From positions 51,111 to 115,110 of IMG/VR virus record IMGVR_UViG_3300032326_001134: a stretch of 64,000 nt of DNA. The stretch is one strand, 5' to 3'. Positions 4,519 to 61,747 of the stretch are shown one piece after another. The position numbers and the translations under genes are program-made. The notes under the pieces were generated by a model. It made no database searches and had not been told where the DNA came from. It was given only the letters and a program-made list of their open reading frames with translations. The stretch comes from a virus. Every line of letters begins with the position of its first letter. Position 1 is the stretch's first letter.

Positions 4519-5060
4519 TGTTAATAAAAATAGTAGAAGACTTTATAACAGAAGAAGATGCAAATACTTTAATTAATGAAATGAAAAACCCGTCAGAAAG
4601 AAATGAGTATCCTGTATATTACAAAGACCGAAATGGTGGAACCGCATTCCCTTATAATAAAAAAGTTATGTCATTGTTAAAAAAATATGCAATACATTCA
4701 AATAAAATACAAAAAGAATTTTTTGGATTAGAAAAAGATGTTATTGTTACAAAAGCTTTTGGTTCGTTTTGGATGCCTGGAACAAGCGGAGCCCCACACA
4801 TAGATGCAATAGAAAAAGAGCCATTTATTGAATACAGTACAGTAATCTATTTAAATGACGAATATGAGGGTGGAGAAATTTATTTTCCAAGACAATCTTT
4901 CGAATATAGTCCTAAAAAATACTCAGCAGTATTTTTTCCAGGAAATAGCATTGACTATGTCCACGGAGTAAAAGAAATAACAAGCGGTAGTAGATTTACA
5001 GCTCTCTATATGCAGTCTACAAAAAAAGACTTTATTGATCCAGATTTTGAAGGGTGCTAG
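4518..5060 (+). CDS. 2OG-Fe(II) oxygenase, prolyl 4-hydroxylase type
   Basis: The 180 aa protein has the complete P4H-type signature: His94-x-Asp96 (in APHIDA), YLNDEYEGGEIYFPR, His149 (in YVHGV) as third iron ligand and Arg159 (in SGSRFT) for 2-oxoglutarate. Enzymes of this family hydroxylate protein or small-molecule carbons using O2 and 2-oxoglutarate. Start and upstream stop overlap as TAATG. A second, divergent oxygenase follows at once. The target is unknown; a virion or host surface component is as plausible as a nucleotide. Confidence 0.88.
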   Translation: MLIKIVEDFITEEDANTLINEMKNPSERNEYPVYYKDRNGGTAFPYNKKVMSLLKKYAIHSNKIQKEFFGLEKDVIVTKAFGSFWMPGTSGAPHIDAIEKEPFIEYSTVIYLNDEYEGGEIYFPRQSFEYSPKKYSAVFFPGNSIDYVHGVKEITSGSRFTALYMQSTKKDFIDPDFEGC

Positions 5061-5061
5061 A

Positions 5062-5715
5062 ATGAATTATAAAGAGTTATCACTAGGGGCAGTATATTAT
5101 AAAAATATTATAGAAGACCCACAGAGTGTCATCAATAAAATAGAAGAACTAGAGCAAAAAAGAAACGAGTCAGAAGGATACAGGTCGGAGTTTGTAAAGC
5201 CATGGCAAGCATGGGACTATAATAACGGAAATAAAGAAAAAACTATTTTTTGCTGGCAAAAGTTTTTACCAAAGCCTGAAGACATAAAGGTGGATGACTT
5301 GTTCTATAAAGAGCAGTTTGAGATATCTTCAATTCTTTTTGATGGACTAGAAAAAGGACTTAAGCATTATTTTTCTTTATACCCATATGCAGAAAAAAAT
5401 ATTAAATCTAGAGAAAAAACAATGCATCTTTTAAAATATAAAGAAAGCGGTTTCCTACCAGCGCACTCAGATCATGGAATAAGTAGCAGGGTATTGTCTG
5501 CTCTTTTATATTTAAATGATGATTACGAAGGAGGGAACATAAGATTCCCTCACGCAGAAATAAACATTAAGCCAGAAGCTGGAAGTTTATTATTTTTTCC
5601 TTCAAACTTTGTTTATGTACATGAAGTAGATGCAGTAACAAGTGGAACAAGATACTCTTTGCCTAACTGGTATCATAATAGAAAAAACGCATATTACTCA
5701 GATGGAACAGAATAA
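5062..5715 (+). CDS. 2OG-Fe(II) oxygenase, prolyl 4-hydroxylase type, second copy
   Basis: Motifs in the 217 aa product: His135-x-Asp137 (in LPAHSDHG), YLNDDYEGGNIRFP, His187 (in YVHEV) and Arg197 (in TSGTRYSL), all needed for iron and 2-oxoglutarate binding. It shares the central block with the preceding gene, so the two are tandem paralogues that have diverged. I chose ATG 5062, one base after the upstream stop and preceded by GAAGGGTG; a longer frame from 5035 adds nine residues inside the upstream gene. The substrate is unknown. Confidence 0.88.
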   Translation: MNYKELSLGAVYYKNIIEDPQSVINKIEELEQKRNESEGYRSEFVKPWQAWDYNNGNKEKTIFCWQKFLPKPEDIKVDDLFYKEQFEISSILFDGLEKGLKHYFSLYPYAEKNIKSREKTMHLLKYKESGFLPAHSDHGISSRVLSALLYLNDDYEGGNIRFPHAEINIKPEAGSLLFFPSNFVYVHEVDAVTSGTRYSLPNWYHNRKNAYYSDGTE

Positions 5716-6413
5716 TGTTTATCGTTACAGGATCTAGTAGTGGAATAGGAAATGCAATTGTAAACAGGCTTTTAAAAAACGGACATTCTGTTTCAGGAAT
5801 TTCAAGAAACATTCCAAAAAATGGTTCTGGATTTAAAACATATCAAGCAGACGTGTCTGATAAAAAATCAATTATAGAAATTGCAGAAGACCTAAAATCA
5901 CAAAACATAACAGTAAGTGGCTTAATAAATTGTGCTGGCTTATCACAAGATTTTTTTATTGCTGATTGGACAAAAATGCCAGCGGAAGAAATTCAATCAA
6001 TTTTTGGAACAAATATTATTGGAATAATAAACACATGCCAGTCATTTGTGCCATTAATGAATAGTAAGGTTCACACTCCAATTATAAACATTAGCAGTCT
6101 CGCAGCTCATGCAAATTCAGATATTTCAGTCTATGCATCTAGTAAGTATGCTGTTAATGGATTTACTAGATCTTTATCTAGAGTTTTAAGAGAAACATCA
6201 ATAAGGCCAAATTGTATAGCTCCAGGAATGATTAAAACAGAAATGACAAAGCACCTACCAGAAGAAATATTTAATAGAATTTTGTTTTTATCTGGTCAAA
6301 CCCTTAGCAGCAAAACATTTACGACAGAAGATATATGCGATGTGGTAGACATGTTAATTGATGAAAAATCAAACAGCTTAACTGGACAGACATTCCACAT
6401 AGGCGGATACTAA
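5715..6413 (+). CDS. Short-chain dehydrogenase/reductase (SDR)
   Basis: A classical SDR of 232 aa: TGSSSGIG cofactor motif at residues 5-12, NCAG at 72-75, Asn100, ISS at 126-128 and the catalytic Tyr140-x3-Lys144 in YASSKYA, with PG after the active site and a typical C-terminal GQTFHIGGY. It should reduce or oxidise a carbonyl/hydroxyl with NAD(P)(H). It is the last gene of the left operon, overlapping the oxygenase gene as TAATG, and is followed by a new promoter. The substrate is unknown; the neighbours suggest a small-molecule or sugar modification route. Confidence 0.92.
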   Translation: MFIVTGSSSGIGNAIVNRLLKNGHSVSGISRNIPKNGSGFKTYQADVSDKKSIIEIAEDLKSQNITVSGLINCAGLSQDFFIADWTKMPAEEIQSIFGTNIIGIINTCQSFVPLMNSKVHTPIINISSLAAHANSDISVYASSKYAVNGFTRSLSRVLRETSIRPNCIAPGMIKTEMTKHLPEEIFNRILFLSGQTLSSKTFTTEDICDVVDMLIDEKSNSLTGQTFHIGGY

Positions 6414-6422
6414 ACCGCTAAA

Positions 6423-6437
6423 TGGTATAATTTTTAA
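6423..6437 (+). promoter_or_regulatory. Extended -10 promoter for a leaderless mRNA
   Basis: TGGTATAAT (6423-6431) is an extended -10 box. Only six bases separate it from the ATG at 6438, so transcription should begin at or next to the start codon. There is no Shine-Dalgarno. The same architecture, base for base in the core, precedes 27834. Confidence 0.65.
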
Positions 6438-8168
6438 ATGTCATACTATTATAAAGTGCTTAAGGATAGCCCGATTGGGTTTTGGAAGCTAGACGATAGC
6501 TCGACCACGGCAACAGATTATTCTGGTTGTCAAAACAATGGATCTTATTTTGGACCACAGGATAAAAAAAATCCAATTGTTAGCGGAAGCGACTATTCAT
6601 TAAGAATAACATCTACGTCTAGCGTAACCTTTCCTTTAATTAAAAATTATTATGGACAAACAGCAAAGGGCGGATTTGCAAATATTAATGACGGGGACAA
6701 CGATTTTTCAATAGAGTGCTGGATATTCCCAAGAGTAGAAACAGACAGCCTTACTACAATTGTTGGAGATAAAGAAAACAATATAGGAATTTTTTGGGAT
6801 AACGGCAATATATATTTTGGGCTGGACACAGACTACCTAGAGTATTCAGTTCCAAATTTTAATAAATCTTTACATGTAGTTTGCACCTACAGTGTAAATA
6901 AAGCATTTATATATGTAGACGGAGTTCTTTGTGTTAGCAAAACAATATCATCTAATCCATTTACAAACACAGAGATTTCCTTAAAATCTGGTCCAACGGA
7001 AAACTTATTAGATTCATTTTTGATTAATAACGTTGCCGTATACAGATACGGATTACCTGAAAAACAAATATACTCCCACTTTGCAGACAACAATAAAGTC
7101 ATGCCGATACAGATAGCATACCCAGAAAATGGAGAAATATTTTATATATATGACAATACAATGAGAAACTCTTTTTCATTTTCATATCCTAAAGACAAAT
7201 CCTGGGAAGACTTTTTAAATCAAGATTTAAATTTAAATAGACTTGAAAACTACATAGAGATATCAAAAACAGACAGCCAGGAAACAAAAGAAGTTATTTT
7301 AAACGATATAATTTCTATGCCATCTGGTATCACAATGGATTCTTCAAAAATATTTTGGAGCGGAGAAAATGGAATTAGGGTGTATACCAGTTTAGATGAT
7401 ATAGACTATCTAGAATGTAAAAATGGAGAGCCAATACCTCAATACAAGTACTCAGAATTTGATGACCAAAAATTCTTTTACATAAGAATTGTAATGGCCT
7501 CTGAAGACTCATCAAAATATTTGCCCAAGCTGTACAGCCTAGAAGTTAATTTCTATAATGCTCAGATATTATATTCTAAAAATGGTGGATCATATATATC
7601 AAAAATTGAAAATTTAGATGCAAGCTTTGGCGAAGATGCGTATCCTATTTTAAGCAATAATGGTTTAAATGGAATACTAGTCGATTCTGATTCTGGGTTC
7701 AATCTAAATACATCAAAATCTATATCAACATTAGAATTTTTTTATACACCAAATACAATTTCTAGCGGAACCATGCTTTCAGCCGACAGCACAGAAATTA
7801 GCTGGTCAAACAATGGCAGTATAAATAAAAATAACATATCCAGCCTTTATGTAAATGGGATTAATAAGACATCTGAAACACAGGTATCTAATATCTTTAA
7901 GCCAAAGGACCTACACCATGTAGTCGTAACCCTTACGTCTCCTGTAACCGAAGAAATTATTTTTAATTATAAACAGGCGGGATCTGAAAAAGCCCTATAC
8001 CAGTATATAACAATATATGAGTATGAGATGGATGTAAATATAATTCAAAACCATTATGATCTATATATGGAGAAATCAAAATATCAGTCCAGCGGATCGA
8101 CACTCAAGGTGTCAGAAAACAACGTAAGCTTATATAATAATGACTGGATAGTGCTCCAAAACTCATAA
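6438..8168 (+). CDS. LamG/concanavalin-like domain phage protein, probably virion-associated
   Basis: The 576 aa protein opens with the usual LamG lead (DSPIGFWKLDDSS, then ATDYSGCQNNGSY) and a jelly-roll domain to about residue 210 (SIECWIFPRVE, VYVDGVLC-like strands). A middle beta-rich region follows and a second concanavalin-like domain is suggested near residues 395-560 (STLEFFYTPNTI, HHVVVTL). Such domains bind glycans and are common in phage fibres. It has its own promoter and stands just upstream of the head genes, so I expect a structural or host-binding protein; no tail-attachment motif is visible. Confidence 0.8.
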   Translation: MSYYYKVLKDSPIGFWKLDDSSTTATDYSGCQNNGSYFGPQDKKNPIVSGSDYSLRITSTSSVTFPLIKNYYGQTAKGGFANINDGDNDFSIECWIFPRVETDSLTTIVGDKENNIGIFWDNGNIYFGLDTDYLEYSVPNFNKSLHVVCTYSVNKAFIYVDGVLCVSKTISSNPFTNTEISLKSGPTENLLDSFLINNVAVYRYGLPEKQIYSHFADNNKVMPIQIAYPENGEIFYIYDNTMRNSFSFSYPKDKSWEDFLNQDLNLNRLENYIEISKTDSQETKEVILNDIISMPSGITMDSSKIFWSGENGIRVYTSLDDIDYLECKNGEPIPQYKYSEFDDQKFFYIRIVMASEDSSKYLPKLYSLEVNFYNAQILYSKNGGSYISKIENLDASFGEDAYPILSNNGLNGILVDSDSGFNLNTSKSISTLEFFYTPNTISSGTMLSADSTEISWSNNGSINKNNISSLYVNGINKTSETQVSNIFKPKDLHHVVVTLTSPVTEEIIFNYKQAGSEKALYQYITIYEYEMDVNIIQNHYDLYMEKSKYQSSGSTLKVSENNVSLYNNDWIVLQNS

Positions 8169-8231: not shown

Positions 8232-8567
8232 ATGGACATTAAAAGAATAAATCAATCAGTTATTGAAGAGACCACCCTTGGTATATATGTTTGGGAAATG
8301 CCAGATGGAAGATGGATTGGCGACGACGATGGAAACTTTTTATCTATTACTGCAAAAAAGGGAAACAGATCAAAGATAGCTCTTTTGGCGGACGCAGTCA
8401 GAGCACACGGCATATACGAAGGCCAGCCAAAGTTTTTATCAGGACGTAGAAAAATTGATGACGAAGAGTTTCAGCATCAAAAGCAAAGATTAGAATGGGG
8501 CCTAACACCAGACCCACTGGATATCGGAGTTTATAAAGACTCTTTGAAAAATGGAGGTATGCGATAA
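8232..8567 (+). CDS. Small conserved protein upstream of portal
   Basis: The 111 aa protein is acidic and basic in turn with no membrane segment (WEMPDGRWIGDDDGNFLS, FLSGRRKIDDEEF). It is first in the structural operon and its stop touches the portal start codon, so translation is coupled. Small proteins in this place occur in many actinophages. Its function is not known to me; a role in head or portal assembly is an inference from position only. Confidence 0.75.
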   Translation: MDIKRINQSVIEETTLGIYVWEMPDGRWIGDDDGNFLSITAKKGNRSKIALLADAVRAHGIYEGQPKFLSGRRKIDDEEFQHQKQRLEWGLTPDPLDIGVYKDSLKNGGMR

Positions 8568-10151
8568 ATGGAATTCATTAATGATGACGAAGTCAGCGCA
8601 GAAACTATTGACATATCAAACTCAGCAGATTGGTTTAAGTTTAATAATAAAGAAGTGGTTGTAGACACAGACCCATTTAACATAGAGGCTCAAGAGCTAA
8701 AAAAGGTGAACGGACTTAGTACAACATTCCGTAGAAAAGTTTCAAGAGATATCCAGAAGAGACTTGTGGGTCAAGAAGGAACAGGAACTCAGCAAAATTT
8801 ATTGCAGCAAGCAGTCACTGGCTACGCAATGTTCGACCTTGTTCAGCCAGTTTATAATTTAGAATATTTATCAAAGATCTATGAAATATCCCCATACAAC
8901 TACGCAGCAATTAATGCAAAGGTTGCCAACATAGTTGGGCTGGGATATTCTTTTGTAGAGACAAAAAAAGCAAACGATGCTTTAGATAGCATAACTGACC
9001 CTAAGCAGTTAGAACGTGCTCGTAAAAAACTAAATAAGCTAAGACAAGATTTAGACAATTGGCTTGAGGAAACAAACGAAGAAGAAACTTTTACAGAAAC
9101 ATTAATCAAAGCATATACAGATTTAGAGGCAACTGGAAATGCCTATATTGAAATAGGAAGAACGGTTGCTGGAAACATTGGATACATAGGTCATATTCCA
9201 TCTAAGACAATGCGTGTTCGTAGACTACGTGACGGATTTATTCAATTGCTATATGGCAAGGCTGTTTTCTTTAGAAACTTTGGAGATCAAGAAACACTAA
9301 ATCCAATAGATGGTGGCCTAGAAAGACCAAATGAAATTATTCATTTAAAGAAGTATACTCCAATGAATAACTATTATGGAATACCAGACATAATTGCAGC
9401 ACAAACGGCAATGGCTGGAAATGAATTTTCTGGAAAATATAACCTAGATTACTTTGAAAATAAAGCAGTTCCAAGATATATAATTACAGTTAAAGGCGCA
9501 AAGCTATCACCAGAGTCAGAAAGAAAACTTCTTGAGTTTTTCCAAGTTGGTTTAAAGGGTAAAAATCACAGATCCCTATACGTCCCGCTACCAGCCGATA
9601 CATCAGACTCTAAAGTTGAATTTAAAATGGAGCCAATTGAAGCTGGAAGTCAAGAAGGCTCATTTGAAAAATATCGCAAATCAAATAGAGATGAAATACT
9701 ATTGGCACACAGAGTTCCAATTAATAAAATTGGAGTTCCAGAAGGAGTAAGCCTAGCATCTGCTAGAGATGCAGATAAAACATTTAAAGAGCAGGTGTGC
9801 GGTCCCGCCCAAGATATTTTAGAGAAAAAAATCAATAGAATTATATCAGAAAAAACAGATGCTCTAGTTCTTGAGTTTAATGAGTTGACTTTGACTGACG
9901 AAGACACGCAGTCTAAAATTGACGAAAGATATTTAAGAATGCAGGTAATTACTCCTAATGAAGTAAGAATTAGAAAAGGAATGATTCCTATGGATGGTGG
10001 AGACGAAGTGGTTGATTTACAAGCACAGGCAGCAGAAATTAAAGCCCAAGCCTTAAATACTAGAAATAGAACCCAAGAAAGATCTGCAAATTCACCAGAT
10101 AGTTCTGGGGAGGCCAGAAATCCAAAAGGTGAAGGTAGAGTCACTGCTTAA
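8568..10151 (+). CDS. Portal protein
   Basis: The 527 aa protein has the size and pattern of HK97/PBSX-type portals: an N-terminal VQPVYNLEYLSKIYEISPYN segment leading into NYAAINAKVANIVGLG, a wing/clip region with AYIEIGRTVAGNIGYIGHIP, a channel-stem helix region and HRVPINKIGVPEGVSLASAR before a C-terminal helical tail rich in Ala/Gln. Twelve copies would form the DNA channel at one capsid vertex and dock the terminase. It is followed by protease/scaffold and capsid genes, the standard head order, although the terminase itself is 45 kb away. Confidence 0.93.
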   Translation: MEFINDDEVSAETIDISNSADWFKFNNKEVVVDTDPFNIEAQELKKVNGLSTTFRRKVSRDIQKRLVGQEGTGTQQNLLQQAVTGYAMFDLVQPVYNLEYLSKIYEISPYNYAAINAKVANIVGLGYSFVETKKANDALDSITDPKQLERARKKLNKLRQDLDNWLEETNEEETFTETLIKAYTDLEATGNAYIEIGRTVAGNIGYIGHIPSKTMRVRRLRDGFIQLLYGKAVFFRNFGDQETLNPIDGGLERPNEIIHLKKYTPMNNYYGIPDIIAAQTAMAGNEFSGKYNLDYFENKAVPRYIITVKGAKLSPESERKLLEFFQVGLKGKNHRSLYVPLPADTSDSKVEFKMEPIEAGSQEGSFEKYRKSNRDEILLAHRVPINKIGVPEGVSLASARDADKTFKEQVCGPAQDILEKKINRIISEKTDALVLEFNELTLTDEDTQSKIDERYLRMQVITPNEVRIRKGMIPMDGGDEVVDLQAQAAEIKAQALNTRNRTQERSANSPDSSGEARNPKGEGRVTA

Positions 10152-41955: not shown

Positions 41956-42162
41956 ATGATTAATCTAGAGATACCAGATCCATTTACAACATTTGTAGCT
42001 AATAAGTACTCTAATTACAAAGGAATGATTTATGACTTCTTTGCAAAAGAGTGGTATTTAAAAGCTGCATGTTGCGGAGAAGAATTATATGCTCCAAATA
42101 AAAAGACTATGACAAAGATTAGACTTTATCATACAAGAAACGAATGCTTGGGAGGATACTAA
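41956..42162 (+). CDS. Small protein between tRNA and polymerase, 68 aa
   Basis: The gene begins 20 bases after the tRNA, with AAGGCGG as ribosome binding site, and its stop overlaps the polymerase start (TAATG). The protein has aromatic residues, a CC pair (LKAACCGEELYAPNKK) and no clear domain. As it lies directly downstream of a tRNA, its mRNA 5' end may be made by tRNA processing. Unknown function. Confidence 0.68.
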   Translation: MINLEIPDPFTTFVANKYSNYKGMIYDFFAKEWYLKAACCGEELYAPNKKTMTKIRLYHTRNECLGGY

Positions 42163-45100
42163 TGAGCTTTGTACACTTACATGTTCATTCATACTACTCC
42201 CTAATGGACGGACTAAATTCCCCAGAAGAATTATGTCAGGCAGCATTAGATGCTGGACAAACATCAATTGCTATTACAGACCATGGAACTTTATCTTCAC
42301 ATAGAGAAATGCAAATTGCTGCAAAGAAGCTTGGTATAAAGCCAATCCTTGGAGTAGAAGCATACATTTCTCCAACAGATAGATTCGACAGATCTTCAAA
42401 AACAGATAAATCTATTCAGGCTTATAACCACATAATATTGCTAGCAAAAAATAAAAAGGGATTAAAAAATATTAACACTCTCCAAGAGCTTGCTTGGAAT
42501 GAAGGCTTCTATCATAAGCCAAGAATTGACAGGGAGATTTTAAATGATTACAGCGAAGGTATTATCGTTCTTAGCGGATGTCTTAATGGACTCATTAGTA
42601 AGGCTATCGATAAAGGTAACATGGAGGAAGCAGAACTTCTTCTCAAAGGCTTTAAACAAACTTTCGGACAAGATTTTTACGTGGAAGTGCAATCACATAA
42701 CCCTGTGGAGATCAACTCCGCCCTTCTAGATCTAGCAGATAAGCTTGGAATTAAATCGGTAGCAACAGGTGATGCTCACTTTGCTAAAGGTGAGGATAAA
42801 GTTTTAGAAGAAGCAATGTTAATTCTCTCTACATCTCCTAAATCTGATAAAGATGCGGACTTTGAAATGTCTAGGAATATGAATAACATGTTAGACAGAT
42901 TTAATTATCTTTATCCTGAACGTAGAATTTCATTCCAGGACTATAATTTATTTATTCAATCACGTTCTGAAATTGAGGCGGACTTTAATAAGGCTGGAAT
43001 TACCCGTACAGATATATATGAGAATACTATAGAAATAGCCAATAAAATTGGAGAATACGATTTTAACGTAGGTCTAGACCTACTTCCAGTACCCAAGACG
43101 GATGCCGACGAAAAGTTGTCTCAAATGGCCCTAGAAGGCCTTAAAAGGCTATCCCTAGACCAAGACAAGGTCTATATTGATAGATTAGAAGAAGAGTTAT
43201 CTATAATTAAAGATAAATCTTTTGCCTCATATTTCTTAGTGGTCGCAGACATGATTAATTGGGCTAAGGATAATAATATTATGGTGGGCCCTGGTCGAGG
43301 TTCTGCAGCTGGATCTTTAGTTTGTTATTCATTAGGCATTACAGATGTTGATCCAATAGAATATGACCTGCTGTTCTTCCGCTTTATCAACCCAGAGCGT
43401 AACGACTTCCCAGATATTGACACAGACTTCGAGGATCGCCGTCGCAAAGAAGTTAAAGACTATCTTAAAAAGAAATTTAAGCACGTAGCATCTATTTCAA
43501 CATATACTTATTTTAAAGATAAAGGTGTAATTAGAGATGCTGCCCGTGTCTTTATGGTTCCATTACAGGATGTAAATCGTGCAATGAAGTCAATTGATAC
43601 ATTTGAAGACTTTATGGAATCTCCTAATACAAAAGAATTTAGAATGAAGTATCCTGAAGTTGTATGGCTTGCTGAAAGACTTCGTGGAAAAATTAGAAGC
43701 GTTGGAGTCCATGCTGCTGGAGTTGTAGTTGCAAAAGATGATTTAAGAAATTTTGCTCCAATTGAGTCTCGTGAAGATGCACAAGATAAAGTTTCTGGCA
43801 GGATACCAGTAGTCGCATACGATATGGATACGGTAGCAGATATTGGATTAATTAAACTAGATGCACTTGGTCTAAAGACATTATCTGTAATCTCAGACAC
43901 ATTGAAAGCAATTAAAGAGAGACACAATAAAGAGATTGTGTTATCTGATTTGCCATTTGACGACCTAGATGTTTATAAAACATTAAGCGAAGGATACACC
44001 AAGGGAGTCTTTCAGGCTGAAGCTACACCATATACAAACTTATTAATTAAAATGGGTGTCGATAAGTTTGAAGATCTCGCTGCATCAAATGCTTTGGTTA
44101 GACCAGGAGCAATGAATACGGTTGGTGCTTCCTACATTAATAGAAAGCACGGACGAGAAGCTGTTAGCTATGTTCATGAAATCATGAAGCCATTTACAGA
44201 AAATACATATGGGGTTATCATATATCAAGAACAGGTTATGCAAGCCTGTGTGCACCTAGGAGGAATGTCCTGGTCAGAAGCTGACAAGGTACGTAAGATT
44301 ATTGGAAAGAAGAAAGATGCAAAAGAATTCGACCAGTTCAAGGATCAATTTATTGATGGAGCTTCAAAACACATTTCTAAGAAAAAGGCCGAATCGTTAT
44401 GGCATGACTTCGAGGCTCATGCTGGCTATTCTTTTAACCGTAGCCATGCTGTTGCTTATTCCATGCTTAGTTATTATACGGCTTGGCTTAAGCACTATTA
44501 CCCACTTGAATTCATTTTTTCTATTCTTAAAAATGAAAATGATAAAGATAAAAGAACAGAGTATTTGATTGAGGCTAAAAGATTAAATCTTAAAATTTTA
44601 TTGCCACACATCAATGAATCAGAGTTGTATTTTTCTCTTAAAGAAAATGCAATTCAATTTGGCTTGGCTGAAGTTAAATTTATTTCTGACAGCATAGCCA
44701 ATAAAATAATAGAAAAGAGACCATATGAAACTTACTCAGAATTTATTCAAAAGGCGTCTGCCAAGGGTAGCGGTATTAACAGCAGGGCCATTGCTGCTCT
44801 TAATAACATTGGTGGGGCTGCTTTTGAGGATAATAAGCGTAGTGGCAAAGAAAAAGAAAACTACTACGAATACCTAGGAATACCAACGTTTAACATAGAC
44901 CTGCCACCAAGAATTAAAGCTCAAGCAAGACCAATTCAAGACTTTGACGACTTAGGATCATTTCCAGTATTTGGAATGGTTAAGAGTATAAAAAGAGGAA
45001 CTGGTTGGGCTAGGGTAGAACTTGTTGATGAAACTGGGTCAATCGGACTGTTTCATAATGAGCAAACACAAATTGAAACAGGACAAATGTATTTTATTCT

Positions 45101-45428
45101 TGTTGGAGACAATAGAATTGCAAGATACATTAAGGTAAATGAAATTGATCCAAATGGTTCTGATTTATTTGTAGATTACCTATACAGAAAAGAATACGAT
45201 ATGGAAGATGATGAAATGATGGTAATTAATTTTAATCCATATAAAACAAAAGCTGGAAAAACAATGGCTCACATTGTTATGACAAATAAAAATAAAGAAT
45301 TGCAACGTGCAATTGCTTTCCCAACAATGTATTCAAAGGTGCTTGGCAGAATGCGTGAGGGAATGAAATGTAAACCAGTTCTTTCTAAATTAGAAGATGG
45401 AACATTAATGATAAAGGAAATAAAATGA
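42162..45428 (+). CDS. dnaE: DNA polymerase III alpha subunit
   Basis: The 1088 aa protein begins with a PHP domain (FVHLHVHSYYSLMDGLN, DHGT at 40-50, GDAHF near 203). The polymerase core has GPGRGSAAGSLVCYSLGI near 371 and the catalytic DFPDIDTDFEDRRR near 413. Helix-hairpin-helix-type sequences and an OB-fold (about 920-1000, FPVFGMVKSIKRGTGWARVE) follow. It should be the replicative polymerase. ATG 42162 shares bases with the previous stop and has GGAGG upstream. DnaE-type polymerases are common in actinophages and spare the phage from using the host's. Confidence 0.95.
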   Translation: MSFVHLHVHSYYSLMDGLNSPEELCQAALDAGQTSIAITDHGTLSSHREMQIAAKKLGIKPILGVEAYISPTDRFDRSSKTDKSIQAYNHIILLAKNKKGLKNINTLQELAWNEGFYHKPRIDREILNDYSEGIIVLSGCLNGLISKAIDKGNMEEAELLLKGFKQTFGQDFYVEVQSHNPVEINSALLDLADKLGIKSVATGDAHFAKGEDKVLEEAMLILSTSPKSDKDADFEMSRNMNNMLDRFNYLYPERRISFQDYNLFIQSRSEIEADFNKAGITRTDIYENTIEIANKIGEYDFNVGLDLLPVPKTDADEKLSQMALEGLKRLSLDQDKVYIDRLEEELSIIKDKSFASYFLVVADMINWAKDNNIMVGPGRGSAAGSLVCYSLGITDVDPIEYDLLFFRFINPERNDFPDIDTDFEDRRRKEVKDYLKKKFKHVASISTYTYFKDKGVIRDAARVFMVPLQDVNRAMKSIDTFEDFMESPNTKEFRMKYPEVVWLAERLRGKIRSVGVHAAGVVVAKDDLRNFAPIESREDAQDKVSGRIPVVAYDMDTVADIGLIKLDALGLKTLSVISDTLKAIKERHNKEIVLSDLPFDDLDVYKTLSEGYTKGVFQAEATPYTNLLIKMGVDKFEDLAASNALVRPGAMNTVGASYINRKHGREAVSYVHEIMKPFTENTYGVIIYQEQVMQACVHLGGMSWSEADKVRKIIGKKKDAKEFDQFKDQFIDGASKHISKKKAESLWHDFEAHAGYSFNRSHAVAYSMLSYYTAWLKHYYPLEFIFSILKNENDKDKRTEYLIEAKRLNLKILLPHINESELYFSLKENAIQFGLAEVKFISDSIANKIIEKRPYETYSEFIQKASAKGSGINSRAIAALNNIGGAAFEDNKRSGKEKENYYEYLGIPTFNIDLPPRIKAQARPIQDFDDLGSFPVFGMVKSIKRGTGWARVELVDETGSIGLFHNEQTQIETGQMYFILVGDNRIARYIKVNEIDPNGSDLFVDYLYRKEYDMEDDEMMVINFNPYKTKAGKTMAHIVMTNKNKELQRAIAFPTMYSKVLGRMREGMKCKPVLSKLEDGTLMIKEIK

Positions 45429-47739: not shown

Positions 47740-48076
47740 AACTGAGTCAAAAAATACTCTAGAGTTAATTAGCGATATTACAGAATTTAACGATCTTCAT
47801 AAGTTTATGAATGACGAGCACCTAGATAAAGCTTTAGCAATTGTAGTAAAGCTTTTAATGAATCCAGATGTTCCTTCTGCAAAATCTCCGATGCTTATTA
47901 TGGAGCTTCAAGCAATGTCTACTAAGTTTGCCGTACTCGCTTCATACTATTCTACTATTGCAAAAGATAAAGCTGGAACTGAAAACAATAATAAAAAAAA
48001 CGTTTACTATTCATTAAAAGAGTCTATAGACAAACTAGTAGATGCACTTAAATATGTAGTTAGGTATAATTCATGA
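47729..48076 (+). CDS. Helical phage protein of unknown function, 115 aa
   Basis: The protein is all-helical: FNDLHKFMNDEHLDKALAIV, MLIMELQAMSTKFAVLASYY, then NVYYSLKESIDKLVDALKYV. The last helix and the size bring to mind small recombination mediators, and the gene is near recA and ssb, but I see no proven motif. The start overlaps the membrane peptide by 11 bp and the end overlaps the secreted protein gene as ATGA. Confidence 0.65.
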   Translation: MENKTESKNTLELISDITEFNDLHKFMNDEHLDKALAIVVKLLMNPDVPSAKSPMLIMELQAMSTKFAVLASYYSTIAKDKAGTENNNKKNVYYSLKESIDKLVDALKYVVRYNS

Positions 48077-48522
48077 GAAATAGATTAGTTATATCTTTCT
48101 TTGTAATAGTTTTATCTGCATTTACAATACAAGCATTTGGAGTAAAACCTTCTTGTATTAATCTATATGTAGACTACGGATCTCTTGATAATAAAAAGAA
48201 AATAAATGAATGTATAGATCAAGACAATATAAATGCATTAGATTTTATAAAACAAGCTGGATACACCACAGAAGGAACTATCAAATACGGCGATGCCGTT
48301 CTATGCAGATTTAATGGCCTACCATCCAATAAAGAAGAATCTTGCAGTGAGATGCCACCAGAAAATGCTTACTGGGCAGTTATTATAAAAAAGAAACAGA
48401 CTCTTCTTTTACCAAGAAATGAATGGGGCTGGGCAGAAAAAGCAATAAATGAAACTTATTTGTCTGCTGGGGACAGTATAGGATTAGTTTTTTCAACTAA
48501 CGGAGATTTAAGATGGCCTTAA
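48073..48522 (+). CDS. Secreted transcobalamin-like (DUF4430-type) protein
   Basis: The 149 aa protein starts with a signal peptide (MRNRLVISFFVIVLSAFTIQ, then AFG). The mature part has INLYVDYGSL, ALDFIKQAGYTTEGT, VLCRFNGLPS and MPPENAYWAVI, ending with a WGWAEKAIN...GDSIGLVFS segment. The order follows secreted actinobacterial proteins of the DUF4430 (transcobalamin C-terminal-like) group that, as I recall, lie near ECF cobalamin transport genes. Two cysteine pairs may form disulfides. Two genes on lies a cobalamin adenosyltransferase, which supports a B12 role. The family call is from memory of the pattern, not a search. Confidence 0.68.
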   Translation: MRNRLVISFFVIVLSAFTIQAFGVKPSCINLYVDYGSLDNKKKINECIDQDNINALDFIKQAGYTTEGTIKYGDAVLCRFNGLPSNKEESCSEMPPENAYWAVIIKKKQTLLLPRNEWGWAEKAINETYLSAGDSIGLVFSTNGDLRWP

Positions 48523-48659
48523 ATTTATTAGATAAACCAGACAAAGTAAAAAATAAAATATCGATACTTTACACAATTCAATTAACGGCTACCATATTTT
48601 TAATGTATGTTGTCAATAAAATTGGAATCGATATTTGGAGAGCAATTAAGGGACATTAA
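48513..48659 (+). CDS. Small membrane protein between the two cobalamin-linked genes, 48 aa
   Basis: The ATG lies 10 bp inside the secreted protein gene and the stop overlaps the adenosyltransferase start (TAATG). It has a charged N-terminus and one membrane helix (LYTIQLTATIFLMYVVNKIG). Strict overlap on both sides suggests a working partner of the cobalamin pair. It has no recognisable transporter motif. Confidence 0.62.
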   Translation: MALNLLDKPDKVKNKISILYTIQLTATIFLMYVVNKIGIDIWRAIKGH

Positions 48660-49156
48660 TGGTCATACTAAGTAAAATTTATACTAAAACTGGTGACGAT
48701 GGGCAAACTTCTAACGCTAATAACGAAAGGGTGTCTAAGACTAGCCCTATAATGGAAGCAATAGGTGCTGTAGATGAAGCTAACTCTGCTATTGGAATGG
48801 CAACCGATGAGTATAATGATGTTATTGAGAGAGTTCAGAGCGACTTATTTGATCTTGGTGCAGAGCTTGCAGGTGCCCCAACAATAACAATATCTGAAAA
48901 CAGAGTGACATATTTAGAAAATGTAATTGATGACTACAATGAATATCTAGAGCCTCTAAGATCTTTTGTTTTACCAACAGGTCCACTGCACAATGCAAGG
49001 ACTGTTGTAAGAAGGGCAGAGCGTGAGGTTTGGAAGATAGAAAATGTAAATCCAAACATTGCTAAGTATTTAAATCGTCTATCAGACCTATTGTTTGTTA
49101 TGGCTAGATATCACAATAAAGGAAAAGAAAAAATGTGGGTTCCAAACAATGGGTAG
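48659..49156 (+). CDS. pduO: Cob(I)alamin adenosyltransferase, PduO type
   Basis: The 165 aa protein has the PduO signature: N-terminal KIYTKTGDDGQTS, then MEAIGAVDEANSAIGMA, QSDLFDLGAELAG, FVLPTGPLHNARTVVRRAER with catalytic-region Arg/Glu and YLNRLSDLLFVMARY at the end. It transfers adenosine from ATP to cob(I)alamin to make coenzyme B12, needed by class II ribonucleotide reductase and mutases. It is slightly shorter than bacterial homologues but all blocks are present. I know of few phage cases with such a gene. A class II reductase of host or phage is the likely user. Confidence 0.9.
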   Translation: MVILSKIYTKTGDDGQTSNANNERVSKTSPIMEAIGAVDEANSAIGMATDEYNDVIERVQSDLFDLGAELAGAPTITISENRVTYLENVIDDYNEYLEPLRSFVLPTGPLHNARTVVRRAEREVWKIENVNPNIAKYLNRLSDLLFVMARYHNKGKEKMWVPNNG

Positions 49157-49925
49157 AGATATAGTTAAAAATTTAAAATTTAAAAAATCATCTGGCAACT
49201 TCGACCCAGAAGTGTTTGCAAGGATGCTTGATGATGCATACTTGGCTACAAAAAGAGAAGATGCAATTACAACAAAGACCTCGTTTAGCCCCAGCTCTTT
49301 AGGGTATGGCCACGGAAACTGTCCAAGGTATTGGTACTTGGCATTTAGTGGAGTTATGTTTATTAATGATAATGATTCAATTGCTATTGCTAATATGGCT
49401 CAGGGAACACAGGCTCACGAAAGACTACAAAATCTAATAAAGACTATGCCTAACTTTGTTGCCGAAGAGCAGGAAATTAAAAATGAATATCCGCCAATCA
49501 GGGGATTTATTGACCTTGTTATGGATTGGAATGGAGAAAAGGTAATTGGAGAAATTAAAACTGCAAAGCAGGAGGTTTGGGATACCCGCCAAGCAGAAAT
49601 GAAATCATCAGCAAATCACATGCTACAATTACTTACATATATGAAATTAACTGACGCCAAAGAGGGATTCTTTTTATATGAGAACAAAAATACACAAGAG
49701 GTAGTAGTCATCCCAGTTGCAATGAACGATAGAAATAAAAAGATTATTGATGATACATTTACATGGATGTGCGAGGTGTGGGATAACTTTAAAGACGGAG
49801 ACCTCCCAATGAGATCATTTACTAAATCAACATCTTCTTGTAAGTATTGCCCAGCAAAAGAGGCATGTTGGTCTATGGAAACTGGCACTGTTCAAATTGA
49901 AAAGTTTGAGGTTCCCAAAATATGA
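49149..49925 (+). CDS. Cas4/RecB-like PD-(D/E)XK exonuclease with Fe-S cluster
   Basis: ATG 49149 overlaps the upstream stop by 8 bp; a longer frame from 49095 is less likely. The 258 aa protein has Cys58 (GNCPRYW), His90, Asp122 (RGFIDLVMD), Glu135-x-Lys137 (GEIKTAK), a QLLTY motif and Cys231/Cys234/Cys240 (CKYCPAKEAC), all the residues of the nuclease site and the four-cysteine 4Fe-4S cluster of Cas4-like enzymes. No CRISPR array is seen, so it is a recombination or replication nuclease. It works next to RecA and the RuvC-like protein. Confidence 0.9.
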   Translation: MGRDIVKNLKFKKSSGNFDPEVFARMLDDAYLATKREDAITTKTSFSPSSLGYGHGNCPRYWYLAFSGVMFINDNDSIAIANMAQGTQAHERLQNLIKTMPNFVAEEQEIKNEYPPIRGFIDLVMDWNGEKVIGEIKTAKQEVWDTRQAEMKSSANHMLQLLTYMKLTDAKEGFFLYENKNTQEVVVIPVAMNDRNKKIIDDTFTWMCEVWDNFKDGDLPMRSFTKSTSSCKYCPAKEACWSMETGTVQIEKFEVPKI

Positions 49926-50777: not shown

Positions 50778-51359
50778 ATGAGCGATAAAGCACAAGTCGA
50801 GTACAATAAGCTGTCAGAAAAATTTAATTTCATACATCATAAAAACTACGATGTGTCAAGAATAAAAGATATAATTAGTAATTTTAAAGAAGAATGGAAT
50901 TTACAGGAGTCAAGACAGTATCAACAAAAAGCCTTATCAAAAACTCTAACATATTTTTTAAAAAAGTATCAAATTGGATGGAAAGTTGGAGAAGAATATG
51001 ATACAAGAATAAACTATGAGGGTACAGAAATATGGAAAATTATTGATCCAATAGTTAAAGATTTGGAAAATATTCATAATGGAAAAAGAGGATCTGTTAT
51101 GATTTGTATGCTAACAAATGAAGATATCATACCAGCACATTTTGATCCAGGAGAGTATTTAGGGGTAGTACGCAGAAATCATATCCCTATAATAACAAAC
51201 GAAGATGTTTTATTTTCAGTAGACAACGAAACTGTAAACATGAAAGAAGGAGAATGTTGGGAGATAAACAACAGCAAGCTACATAGGGTTGCCAACAAAT
51301 CCAAAACAGATAGAGTTCATTTAATCATCGACGTAATCCCAGATAAGTATTTAAAATAA
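50778..51359 (+). CDS. Aspartyl/asparaginyl beta-hydroxylase-like oxygenase
   Basis: AAAGAGGTAGA precedes the ATG. The 193 aa protein has the cupin pattern of this family: His121-x-Asp123 (IPAHFDPG), VVRRNHIPIITN, WEINNSKLHRV with His169, and Arg179 (TDRVHLIID). These bind iron and 2-oxoglutarate. In phages such enzymes have unknown targets. It opens a small group of modification genes ahead of the terminase. Confidence 0.82.
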   Translation: MSDKAQVEYNKLSEKFNFIHHKNYDVSRIKDIISNFKEEWNLQESRQYQQKALSKTLTYFLKKYQIGWKVGEEYDTRINYEGTEIWKIIDPIVKDLENIHNGKRGSVMICMLTNEDIIPAHFDPGEYLGVVRRNHIPIITNEDVLFSVDNETVNMKEGECWEINNSKLHRVANKSKTDRVHLIIDVIPDKYLK

Positions 51360-55375: not shown

Positions 55376-55611
55376 GCGAATACCAAGAAAAAGCAAAGGA
55401 GTGTAAATGTTGCAGTAAACATGTTCCACTTCCAATTGTTTTAAAGGAATATAATAATAAGGCTGTATGCCCAACTACATTTTCAAATATTATTGAATAT
55501 CAAAGAATATGGAATGCTATTGGCAAAAGGCCTCAAGGAAATATAAGAAAGCATTTTTCTGAGTACGTTCAGCAAATTGTAGAAGAATCATTTAGAAATG
55601 TAGCTGAATGA
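55372..55611 (+). CDS. Small Cys-rich protein after the terminase, 79 aa
   Basis: KECKCCSKHVPLP and a further Cys (AVCPTT) suggest one zinc-binding site; the second half is a helix pair (NIIEYQRIWNAIGKRPQGNI). The ATG overlaps the terminase stop and the stop overlaps the next gene. Such small zinc proteins near packaging genes have no known role. Confidence 0.68.
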   Translation: MSEYQEKAKECKCCSKHVPLPIVLKEYNNKAVCPTTFSNIIEYQRIWNAIGKRPQGNIRKHFSEYVQQIVEESFRNVAE

Positions 55612-56543
55612 AAGCAATTGTAATAAATAAATTTGGTGGCCCAGAAGTTATAGAGTATGAGGACTACAATGAACCAACTCCTACACAAAATCAAATTCTA
55701 GTAAATATTAGAATGGTAGGTGTAAGCTTTTTTGATACCTATCAAATTGAAAATAGTCACTTTATTTTAAAAAGTGAAACCCCGCCAATAGTTCCTGGTG
55801 TCGAAGCATCTTTTTCTATAGACAACAAAATTTTTGTTGGGTTTACAGAAAGCGGATCCTACGCCGAAAAATCTGTTGTTGATAAAACCAAGATGTTTGA
55901 GGTCCCAGAAGGAGTTATGGAAGAAGAGGCGCTATCAGCACTTTCCCAGGGGGTAACGGCCTATGGACTTGTAAACTATGCATGTAAAATAAAAAAAGGA
56001 GACCTTGTTCTTATAAATGGCGCATCAAGCGGACTATCAATGATTTTAATACAGCTTTGTAAGATGGCGGGTGCGGATGTTATTGGTGTAACATCGAGTC
56101 AAAAAAAGATAGATTTTATAAAAACTTTAGGTGTTGATTTTGCTTGCTTAAATAGCTTTAATGAAATAGAAAAAACACTAAGATCTATAGGTCGCAAACC
56201 AAACTTAATTATGGATTCATATAGCGGTAGGTCTTTTATGAAGTACTATGAAATTTTGTCAGACGATGGGCATATATGCACATATGGGGCTTCTGCTAAA
56301 GAGGGTATTCAAACCCCTAATAGAAAAACAGATTCTTTAAAAACATTTTCTATATTCTGGGGAACAAAAGAATTCAGTGATAGGGAAAAATTAAAAAACG
56401 CAGTCAACTATATATTTAATTTAATTAAAACCAAAAAACTTAAAATAGTTATTGGAGATAAAATGGAATTAAAAAACGCAAAATTAATGCATGAAAAAAT
56501 TAGAAATAGAAATACCTTTGGGAAACTGATATTAACAATATGA
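55608..56543 (+). CDS. MDR-family NADPH:quinone-type oxidoreductase
   Basis: The 311 aa protein shows the whole medium-chain dehydrogenase/reductase plan: GroES-like start (MKAIVINKFGGPEVIEYEDY), VPGVEASFSI, ALSALSQGVTAYGLV, the cofactor loop VLINGASSGLSMILIQLCKM, GVTSSQKKIDFI and the last LMHEKIRNRNTFGKLILT. There is no catalytic zinc cysteine set, so it belongs to the quinone oxidoreductase branch. It leads the carbamoyltransferase/SGNH island. A phage copy of this enzyme is unusual and may be a tailoring enzyme for the island product. Confidence 0.9.
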   Translation: MKAIVINKFGGPEVIEYEDYNEPTPTQNQILVNIRMVGVSFFDTYQIENSHFILKSETPPIVPGVEASFSIDNKIFVGFTESGSYAEKSVVDKTKMFEVPEGVMEEEALSALSQGVTAYGLVNYACKIKKGDLVLINGASSGLSMILIQLCKMAGADVIGVTSSQKKIDFIKTLGVDFACLNSFNEIEKTLRSIGRKPNLIMDSYSGRSFMKYYEILSDDGHICTYGASAKEGIQTPNRKTDSLKTFSIFWGTKEFSDREKLKNAVNYIFNLIKTKKLKIVIGDKMELKNAKLMHEKIRNRNTFGKLILTI

Positions 56544-57454
56544 TAGAAAAATTTAGCACATATAGCAAACAGCTTAACGAATACCTAAGTACTCCTAAAG
56601 GTTTAAATAATTGGGACAAAAAAACTTTTCTTAAAAATTATAAACATAATTATGATTACATTTTACCAGAAGGATGTGTTATAAATTCTCATGGATTTAG
56701 AGGAGAAGAATTTAAAAAAGATACAGATCTGATATTTGCTGGCTGCTCACAAACATACGGATATGGCTTAAAAGAAGAATCAATGTGGGGAGTTATGTTA
56801 TCAAAAGAAAATAATATGTCATATGCAAATATATCAATTCCAGGAGCATCTCCAATGCACATAGTGTTTAACATATTTAAATATTTTGAAAAATATGGAC
56901 ATCCAAAAGTCATAGTAGCGCTATTTCCAGATTTTTACAGAATAAGAACATTTTTAGACTCTAAAATATTAAATAGAAGATCCCAAGAGATTGCAAAAAA
57001 GAATCAAAAAAATATTTTTGTAGATTCTCATGGGAATAATGGTTTAGGGTTTTTAAAATATCTTAAGCTACCCACCTCACCAGAAAAGGTTTATTCTCAA
57101 GAGTTTACCTACATGATAAATTCAATGTTTATTACTATGCTAGAGACCTATTGTAATAAAAATAATATAATTTTTATTTGGAGTAAAACATTTAATTATG
57201 AAAAATATGATGATTATCAAGACTCATTTTTATCTTTTAAAAATTATTATAGTTTTGATTTAAGAAAAGAAATTGTTGGAGACGGTAAAAGCAGCCCTTT
57301 AAAATATGGAAATTATTCCTGTCACGAAAACAACAACAAAAACGATCCCTGCTGGGACGCAGCCTTAGACAATCTTCATTTTGGCACACATATTAATATA
57401 CATATAAAAGATTTTTTTCAAAAAATACTCAAAGAAAAAATACATTATAGATGA
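56540..57454 (+). CDS. SGNH/GDSL-like hydrolase, copy 1
   Basis: In this 304 aa protein, LIFAGCSQTYGYG (block I, nucleophile Ser), SIPGASPMHIVF (block II), VIVALFPDFYRI and DNLHFGTH (block V with the Asp-x2-His) match the SGNH scheme. These enzymes remove or transfer acyl groups on sugars. It overlaps the oxidoreductase and carbamoyltransferase genes as ATGA, pointing to one operon. No signal peptide, so it acts in the cytoplasm or virion. Two paralogues follow at 58880 and 60288. Confidence 0.8.
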   Translation: MIEKFSTYSKQLNEYLSTPKGLNNWDKKTFLKNYKHNYDYILPEGCVINSHGFRGEEFKKDTDLIFAGCSQTYGYGLKEESMWGVMLSKENNMSYANISIPGASPMHIVFNIFKYFEKYGHPKVIVALFPDFYRIRTFLDSKILNRRSQEIAKKNQKNIFVDSHGNNGLGFLKYLKLPTSPEKVYSQEFTYMINSMFITMLETYCNKNNIIFIWSKTFNYEKYDDYQDSFLSFKNYYSFDLRKEIVGDGKSSPLKYGNYSCHENNNKNDPCWDAALDNLHFGTHINIHIKDFFQKILKEKIHYR

Positions 57455-58887
57455 TAATATTAGGTATAAACGAAACCTCCCACGATGCATCAGTATCTTT
57501 AATTAAAGATGGAGACATATTGTTTGCTGGACATGCAGAAAGATATAGTAAACAAAAAAATGATTGGTACATTAATGACAGCCTGATTGAGGATGCTTTA
57601 TCATACGGGGTACCTAATGCTATAGCTTACTATGAGAAACCGCTTCTAAAGGCCTCCAGGCTATTTTTAAAGGGTGGTTCTGGTGACTGGAAGCCACAGT
57701 TTAATATAGAAGGAATCCCTAGAAAATCATTTAATCATCATTATTCTCATGCATGCGCTGGTTACTATACTAGCAAATTTACAGATGCAGCAATAGTAGT
57801 TCTAGATGCAATGGGAGAATATAACACTTCAACTATTTGGGTAGGAGAGGGTGAAAAAATTAAATTAAAATTTAAGCAAAACTACCCAGTAAGCTTTGGA
57901 CTTTTTTATTCTGCATTTACTAAATTAATAGGACTTATGCCAAATCAAGAAGAATATATTATGATGGGTATGGCAGCCTATGGAGATTGGGAAAGATACT
58001 ATAAAGAAGTAGACTCATACTTTCCAAAATACTATGATCAGTCATATAATTTTCATAAAGGAATAACAGATTGGGGAATTCCAATTAATGAAAAAGATAG
58101 GTTTGACATAGCAGCAGCCGCTCAGGTTGTATATGAACAAAGGCTAATTGATTTTATGCAAATGGCAAAGAAATTAACTGGAAAAACAAATCTTGTTTTT
58201 ATGGGCGGATGTGCTTTAAACTCATCTGCTAACACATTGCTTTGGAAAATATTTAAAGATATTTGGATTATGCCAAATCCAGGTGACGCTGGATCATCTT
58301 TGGGTGCAGCAGCAGCTCTATACGGTAAACACATTAACTGGAAAAATCCTTATTTAGGTTATGATATGGGTGGAGAGTATCCTGTAAATCAAATACTTGA
58401 AGAACTAAAAACTAATAAAATAGCAGCAGTTGCAACAGGCAGAGCAGAATACGGACCAAGAGCTCTTGGAAATAGAAGTATTTTAGCAGACCCCAGGGAT
58501 CCAAACATTAAAGATAAAGTTAATACAATTAAACAAAGAGAGCAGTTTAGACCGTTTGCTCCAGTAGTACTTGAAGAGTTTGCAAGCGAGTGGTTTGATA
58601 TGGATTTTGCATCACCATATATGCAGTATACAGTCAAATGTAAACAGCCAGAAAAGATACCTTCAGTTGTACATAAAGATGGAACTTCTAGAGTTCAAAC
58701 AGTAAACAAAGAACAACACCCAGGACTACACATGCTTTTAAGAAAATGGTATTGGGATACAGGTTGCCCAGTTCTTTTAAATACAAGTTTGAATATAAAA
58801 GGACAGCCTTTGCTAAATGATGAAACCGATTCGGTAAAATGGAAAGATTATTATAATTATAGTATAATTGGGTTACAGAATGTTTAA
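57451..58887 (+). CDS. NodU/CmcH-type carbamoyltransferase
   Basis: The 478 aa protein has GINETSHDASVSLIKDG at the start, HHYSHA (96-101, metal-binding), VLDAMGEYNTSTIW, MGGCALNSSANTLLW and a C-terminal lobe with GRAEYGPRALGNRSILADPR, FRPFAPVV and CPVLLNTSLNIKGQPLL. It should make carbamoyl-AMP and transfer the carbamoyl group to a hydroxyl. Possible acceptors are a sugar, a natural product or, as shown for some phages, a hydroxymethylated base. At 478 aa it is somewhat short for the family but all motifs are kept. It is flanked by SGNH genes with direct overlaps. Confidence 0.93.
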   Translation: MIILGINETSHDASVSLIKDGDILFAGHAERYSKQKNDWYINDSLIEDALSYGVPNAIAYYEKPLLKASRLFLKGGSGDWKPQFNIEGIPRKSFNHHYSHACAGYYTSKFTDAAIVVLDAMGEYNTSTIWVGEGEKIKLKFKQNYPVSFGLFYSAFTKLIGLMPNQEEYIMMGMAAYGDWERYYKEVDSYFPKYYDQSYNFHKGITDWGIPINEKDRFDIAAAAQVVYEQRLIDFMQMAKKLTGKTNLVFMGGCALNSSANTLLWKIFKDIWIMPNPGDAGSSLGAAAALYGKHINWKNPYLGYDMGGEYPVNQILEELKTNKIAAVATGRAEYGPRALGNRSILADPRDPNIKDKVNTIKQREQFRPFAPVVLEEFASEWFDMDFASPYMQYTVKCKQPEKIPSVVHKDGTSRVQTVNKEQHPGLHMLLRKWYWDTGCPVLLNTSLNIKGQPLLNDETDSVKWKDYYNYSIIGLQNV

Positions 58888-61339: not shown

Positions 61340-61747
61340 ATGGTAACAAAACTTGCTATGGATCTTTTTAATGATCCATTTTTTATTGGATGGGATACTA
61401 ATTTTGCAAAAATGCAATCTTCAAACTCTAACTATCCAATTTATGATCTAGTTAAATTCGATAACGGTGCTTATGGCATTAGTTTGGCAATTGCTGGATT
61501 TCAACGTGAAGACATAAGTGTTTATGTTGAAAATAATAATTTGGTAATCAAAGGTGAGCTACACGGAGAACACTGGGATGGAGAATATATCCACGAAGGT
61601 ATTGCCAAAAGAAACTTCGAAAGGTCATTTTCATTAGGAGAGTATATGGAAGTTGATAACGCTGAAATGAAAGACGGCATGCTTCATATACACATTAGAA
61701 AAAATGTCCCAGAAGAGAAAAAGCCTAAAACAATTAAAGTAAAGTAA
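61340..61747 (+). CDS. hsp20: Small heat-shock protein, Hsp20 family
   Basis: The 135 aa protein carries an alpha-crystallin domain: YPIYDLVKFDNGAYGISLAI, AGFQREDISVYVENNNLVIK, then GIAKRNFERSFSLGEYMEV and the C-terminal MLHIHIRKNVPEEKKPKTIK with an I-x-V-like end. Such chaperones hold unfolded proteins and are known in other phages, chiefly those of cyanobacteria. An AAGGAGGA site precedes the ATG. Likely helps capsid or host protein folding late in infection. Confidence 0.92.
   Translation: MVTKLAMDLFNDPFFIGWDTNFAKMQSSNSNYPIYDLVKFDNGAYGISLAIAGFQREDISVYVENNNLVIKGELHGEHWDGEYIHEGIAKRNFERSFSLGEYMEVDNAEMKDGMLHIHIRKNVPEEKKPKTIKVK

Follow-up and report, generated by a model that had tools for sequence, protein, structure and literature searches.

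How do the many phages that rely on a B12-dependent ribonucleotide reductase (RNR) secure adenosylcobalamin when their hosts are B12 auxotrophs? Viruses with the class II enzyme RTPR must infect a host that either makes B12 or assimilates and modifies a precursor, and enhanced B12 uptake by such viruses was raised in 2023 as speculation only (PMC10547690). A three-gene operon in a freshwater phage, widespread among freshwater viral contigs, offers a concrete and testable answer. It lies in a window of 64,000 nucleotides (positions 51111-115110 of a 115,110-base IMG/VR virus record) that contains portal, prohead protease and phage recombination genes, marking it as part of a genuine phage genome. 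A first, sequence-only reading had described three overlapping genes at 48073-49156, the second encoding a 48-aa membrane protein, as one cobalamin module. The three open reading frames are present at these coordinates and overlap as described, and the second encodes a single helix. We call these genes sec, tm and pduO; together with the genes discussed alongside them, they are as follows.

48073..48522, + strand: sec, 149 aa; predicted signal-anchor helix (about residues 6-24) and extracytoplasmic domain; proposed cobalamin-capture protein
48513..48659, + strand: tm, 48-aa single-helix membrane protein that adjoins sec in nearly all loci
48659..49156, + strand: pduO, PduO-type ATP:cob(I)alamin adenosyltransferase, 165 aa, short phage form
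47729..48076, + strand: conserved phage gene phrog_9818, 5' neighbour of sec
49149..49925, + strand: Cas4-like exonuclease gene, 3' neighbour of pduO; ATG at 49149 is the likely start
G000:C1:37095-39029 of the same record: class II (AdoCbl-dependent) RNR, RTPR, 644 aa, by matches to TIGR02505 (below cut-off) and 1l1l

The overlaps measure 10 nt between sec and tm and 1 nt between tm and pduO (TAATG). With a further 4-nt overlap (ATGA) between phrog_9818 and sec, the trio is embedded in a longer series of overlapping genes that runs from phrog_9818 to the Cas4-like exonuclease (from ~49149). Elsewhere, the window encodes a phage DNA polymerase III alpha subunit with a PHP domain (42144-45428), a protein resembling aspartyl/asparaginyl beta-hydroxylase (50778-51359), a zinc alcohol dehydrogenase-like protein (55608-56543), a carbamoyltransferase (57451-58887) and HSP20 (61340-61747). 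Two tail-fibre-region proteins (L101:6157-7032 and L101:9501-10787, at ~46.2-47.0 kb and ~49.5-50.8 kb of G000:C1) carry apparent Hint/intein-type domains beside FGFTP repeats.

To assess how widely the trio is conserved, we searched viral contigs and found 245 stretches encoding PduO relatives and 173 encoding sec relatives. Many of the sec contigs are near-identical, and the phage sec proteins collapse to 30 when those at least 93% alike are merged. pduO follows sec in 73 of 74 loci, the remaining one being a contig end, and BLAST detected tm between them in 70 of the 73. As these 70 loci keep the three genes adjacent and in an unchanged order, they are more than chance open reading frames. 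BLAST did not pick up tm in L154, L155 and L159, where the spacing between sec and pduO is similar.

The sec-tm pair is separable and may be missing where pduO stays. Other relatives lack both genes, and phrog_9818 directly adjoins pduO in most of those examined; capture is therefore dispensable in the phages that keep pduO without sec-tm. The cassette as a whole also occurs in more than one genomic context, lying away from the phrog_9818 and exonuclease flanks in some phages. Streptomyces phage Sham (Stanwilliamsviridae) has no trio at the syntenic site, where its phrog_9818-like gene adjoins the exonuclease gene; this makes the exonuclease gene the right border of an insertion relative to Sham. 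The Streptomyces phages are close to the window phage in RNR (~66% identical) and portal (~57% identical), yet a search of the phage collection returned no sec match anywhere and no PduO match among the Streptomyces phages. The window phage shares its type of RNR with other RTPR-carrying phages, both Stanwilliamsviridae and B12-dependent virioplankton (PMC10547690), but differs from the former in filling a site that is empty in Sham.

A search for nrdJ in the rest of the genome, one of the checks proposed with the sequence-only reading, located a class II RNR gene in the viral record, at a distance of ~60 kb from sec-tm-pduO. The protein matches TIGR02505 with E = 3.9e-90 and 303 bits, below the curated cut-off of 340.05, which the RNRs of three sec-carrying relatives exceed. 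Its closest PDB entry is 1l1l (E = 1.9e-45), the Lactobacillus leichmannii enzyme, and the NPC-E, CNL-EV and N-terminal NC blocks match in the alignment. These blocks contain the cysteines that act in catalysis. RTPR was found in 13 of 22 contigs tested, including all eight of at least 91 kb; the nine contigs with no RTPR match are all shorter (46-86 kb).

The link to the trio is much tighter in relatives. In 38 other phage loci, sec-tm-pduO follows closely behind an RNR gene, in most cases with a short gap or an overlap between them, as in L115 (RNR 3962-6004, sec 6001-6453, a 4-nt overlap), L178 (RNR 3961-5991, sec 6001-6456) and L171 (RNR 3944-5866, sec 5908-6375). The distance is larger in L091 and L092, and L177 ends before pduO. 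These sec-linked RNRs fall into two groups, with ~28% and ~81% identity to that of the window phage; the L171 protein (81%) belongs to the second.

The product of pduO is, with certainty, a PduO-type corrinoid adenosyltransferase by family, as had been proposed. It matches PF01923 (E = 2e-50, 171.6 bits; cut-off 24) and NCBIfam TIGR00636 (E = 1.7e-45, 154.8 bits; cut-off 108.45), and its best solved relative is the Mycobacterium tuberculosis enzyme, to which it aligns over its full length. The sequence-only reading had made its case depend on conservation of the ATP-binding residues, and the motif blocks YTKTGDDG, FVLP, RRAER and YLNRLSD proved to align with the M. tuberculosis enzyme and to be invariant in 17 phage members. 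The conserved residues of these motifs serve ATP and corrinoid in the family. Given family membership and motifs, phage PduO is expected to adenosylate cob(I)alamin. It shares domain and motifs with other PduO-type ATP:corrinoid adenosyltransferases but differs in being encoded in a phage operon and in its length, 165 aa against ~190 aa for cellular forms, the difference arising from loop deletions. In a tree, it falls inside a phage-only clade whose members are of this short form, with a best cellular identity of ~54%. Other sec-tm phages carry a PduO of 187-191 aa that groups with cellular actinobacterial PduO and is 74-77% identical to the PduO of small genomes, so sec-tm has been paired with two distinct PduO clades. 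PduO matches were also present in Listeria, Enterococcus, Salmonella and Acinetobacter phage records, but these are 32-43% identical, lie mostly in short unannotated records and seem likely to be host contamination or prophage-free host DNA.

The sec protein is less readily classified. It had been read as a secreted protein with a signal peptide. The hydrophobic N-terminus is clear (mean Kyte-Doolittle 2.25 over residues 6-24), but secretion fits less well: a lipobox-like site is absent from 30 of 30 distinct phage sec proteins and, by eye, most lack an obvious cleavage site. We therefore favour a protein that is probably membrane-anchored and faces outward rather than being freely secreted. 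Four cysteines of the extracytoplasmic domain are invariant over the whole phage set. Direct searches against Pfam, PHROG, NCBIfam and PDB sequences returned nothing useful. The DUF4430-like pattern of the earlier reading also found no counterpart in Pfam by sequence, as the DUF4430 HMM (PF14478) had no match in the phage's own genome up to E = 10 and matched none of 15 sec members. Nor did phage sec match NF040672 (the SCO2322 family), for which cellular sec homologues score 17.7-23.6 bits, below the cut-off of 85.

Predicted structure agrees better with that pattern. We built AlphaFold models of phage sec (pLDDT 86.9, pTM 0.76) and of a cellular homologue (pLDDT 86.9, pTM 0.77) from alignments of phage and cellular sec homologues, most of which the two models share. 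In Foldseek searches of the PDB, the phage model ranked 3u7z first and second, and 14 of the next 15 ranks (3-17) went to transcobalamin or intrinsic factor (16 of 17 overall). For the cellular model, ranks 1-14 were all transcobalamin, intrinsic factor or 3u7z, as were ranks 16-17. 3u7z, which we take to be a DUF4430 structure, is titled a putative metal-binding protein in the PDB. Probabilities were 0.97-1.0, E-values mostly ~1e-3 to 3e-2 and TM-scores ~0.4-0.5 by query length; as these E-values are modest, the case for the fold rests on consistency across the two models and on context. A search of viral structures in BFVD gave no convincing match. Collectively, these models support a transcobalamin beta-domain-like predicted fold for the sec ectodomain, in line with the earlier expectation of a transcobalamin-like match; according to PMC4350170, transcobalamins have DUF4430 as their C-terminal domain. 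Likeness to transcobalamin, intrinsic factor and 3u7z is limited to the predicted fold, as sec has no DUF4430 HMM match and no transcobalamin alpha domain, is probably membrane-anchored and is encoded by a phage. With the operon, the sec family, which has no Pfam match, gains a candidate function.

The small tm protein is conserved at its C-terminus (D-I/V-W-R-(S/A)-x-x-G-H) and may act with sec in raising cobamide uptake. As sec is predicted to be anchored in the membrane and exposed at the surface, and is homologous to a host surface protein, it could instead serve in superinfection exclusion, acting as a decoy or mask of a B12-uptake surface protein that phages use as receptor. We consider this very unlikely, as pduO comes after sec wherever a phage locus extends far enough and class II RNR often comes before, which points to metabolism.

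Cellular relatives of sec provide independent context. A scan of genome contigs identified 41 homologues, in Actinobacteria, and in the loci inspected the homologue sits before EcfT/EcfA and EcfS-like genes. Of 12 loci scanned, three (L193, L207 and L217) have a cobalamin riboswitch upstream; the phage record contains none that we could find. In L180 and L184, a metH-like gene, read from translation, is nearby. The phage cassette resembles the actinobacterial cobalamin ECF operons with an SCO2322-like protein (NF040672), some of them with riboswitches, but has only the sec-type protein and tm, no ECF gene, and an added PduO. A Met_synt_B12 domain is encoded in each of the 18 genomes tested, and 11 of them, of the Microbacteriaceae type with sec-ECF operons, lack both PduO and CobA/BtuR. 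The idea that the phage supplies PduO to a PduO-less host was not established, as the cellular PduO proteins nearest to the phage form come from small genomes that have a PduO and a class II RNR of their own.

From its predicted fold, its operon context and the riboswitch control of its cellular relatives, we infer that sec binds cobalamin. Another tetrapyrrole such as haem would suit Ca. Nanopelagicales, possible hosts that are haem auxotrophs (PMC10202952), but it is hard to reconcile with homologues under cobalamin riboswitches, fold neighbours that bind cobalamin and linkage to PduO and class II RNR, and we regard this ligand as highly improbable.

The genomes encoding the closest cellular PduO proteins are small (1.2-2.2 Mb, mostly 1.2-1.6 Mb), and a class II RNR is present in every one of the 20 tested. 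Two of them, G195 and G267, encode a sec homologue (E = 2e-53 and 1e-46) behind a riboswitch: an RF01482 AdoCbl riboswitch at 5980-6126 ahead of sec at 6179-6706 in L250, and an RF00174 riboswitch at 8449-8591 on the minus strand ahead of sec at 7847-8374 in L251 (riboswitch-to-sec distances of 53 and 75 nt). A 53-56-aa single-helix gene follows sec in both. It is like phage tm in where it sits, how long it is, its one helix and a C-terminal W-R...G-H/C pattern; homology was not significant with an HMM made from phage tm alone. Apparently the same chromosomal neighbourhood, with adjoining gcvT-like and peptidase-like genes read from translations, occurs in three relatives, where the site holds riboswitch-BtuFCD (L258) or riboswitch-SCO2322-like-EcfT-EcfA-EcfS (L259 and L260). 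The SCO2322-like proteins of the latter two (L259:6258-6797 and L260:6578-7159, both minus strand) are apparently circularly permuted relative to sec, with a RYWGY...GWSFVF block ahead of a VALVIDFG block.

Searches of the full G195 and G267 genomes, by tblastn and with HMMs from relatives, found no EcfT, cobalamin EcfS, BtuC or BtuF, with completeness inferred from their single-contig assemblies. sec-tm may therefore serve without them. BacA-like ABC proteins (PMC10960864) and BtuM are other transporter types. The size and GC content of the small genomes suggest the abundant acI lineage, whose genomes are reported to be B12-auxotrophic and to have an ECF module downstream of cobalamin riboswitches (PMC5301498). 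G195 and G267 are near the size range reported for that lineage, and their arrangement suggests a B12 uptake route not yet characterised.

These observations bear on how sec-tm would work. One plausible option, although we lean against it, is that the pair provides an extra substrate-capture subunit of a host cobalamin ECF or BtuFCD transporter and has no uptake route of its own. Encoding of the sec homologue beside EcfT/EcfA/EcfS genes in Microbacteriaceae and other Actinobacteria fits this arrangement, whereas the two streamlined genomes with riboswitch-sec-tm and none of those subunits detectable do not. Conversely, and more doubtfully, sec-tm might be a minimal stand-alone B12 uptake unit that replaces ECF or BtuFCD at one riboswitch locus in two streamlined freshwater-type actinobacteria, and to which phages have added class II RNR and an adenosyltransferase, giving a complete capture-activate-use operon.

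Under either arrangement, we think it probable that sec, tm and pduO form a module that supplies cofactor to the B12-dependent class II RNR of the phage itself. Anchored in the host membrane with its transcobalamin-like domain outside, sec would bind cobalamin and, with tm, raise cobamide uptake into the infected cell, either by feeding a host transporter or by forming a minimal uptake unit. PduO would then adenosylate the imported, reduced corrinoid with ATP, and the adenosylcobalamin would serve the phage RNR in making dNTPs for phage DNA. Formation of adenosylcobalamin by PduO and its use by class II RNR are established for these families. The sequence-only reading of a cobalamin module is thus largely borne out by gene content, conservation, the RNR in the same genome, operon linkage to RNR in the 38 relatives, the pairing of sec-tm with two PduO clades and its presence in more than one genomic context, the fold prediction and the cellular ECF and riboswitch context; from these, we infer B12 uptake and benefit to the phage. 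Counting against cofactor supply are the modest fold E-values, the lack of a transporter subunit in the phage cassette, the phages that keep pduO without sec-tm, the distance to the RNR gene in the window phage and the score of that RNR below its cut-off.

The same reading had stated that no phage system was known to join outside capture to adenosylation. Our literature search, which had preprints and most subscription papers outside its scope, likewise turned up neither a published phage system that combines B12 capture with adenosylation and class II RNR nor a PduO or capture protein from a phage. The available portion of PMC11183165 describes the viral cobalamin auxiliary genes cobS, cobT and cobA, including a CobA-named adenosyltransferase. 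The trio is similar to these as a set of cofactor-related viral auxiliary genes but, unlike what that portion mentions, includes a capture protein and operon linkage to class II RNR.

A different use of adenosylcobalamin is suggested by G267, a host-type genome in which a cobalamin riboswitch precedes apparent nrdH/I and class I RNR genes: PduO might mainly raise adenosylcobalamin so that host riboswitches silence host genes. Cofactor supply is the simpler explanation for finding pduO in one operon with phage class II RNR in relatives, and we regard riboswitch-mediated shut-off as the least probable reading. The riboswitch itself, the second cobalamin riboswitch noted in G267 (L261; G267:C1:246000-254800), suggests B12-controlled switching between RNR classes in that genome.
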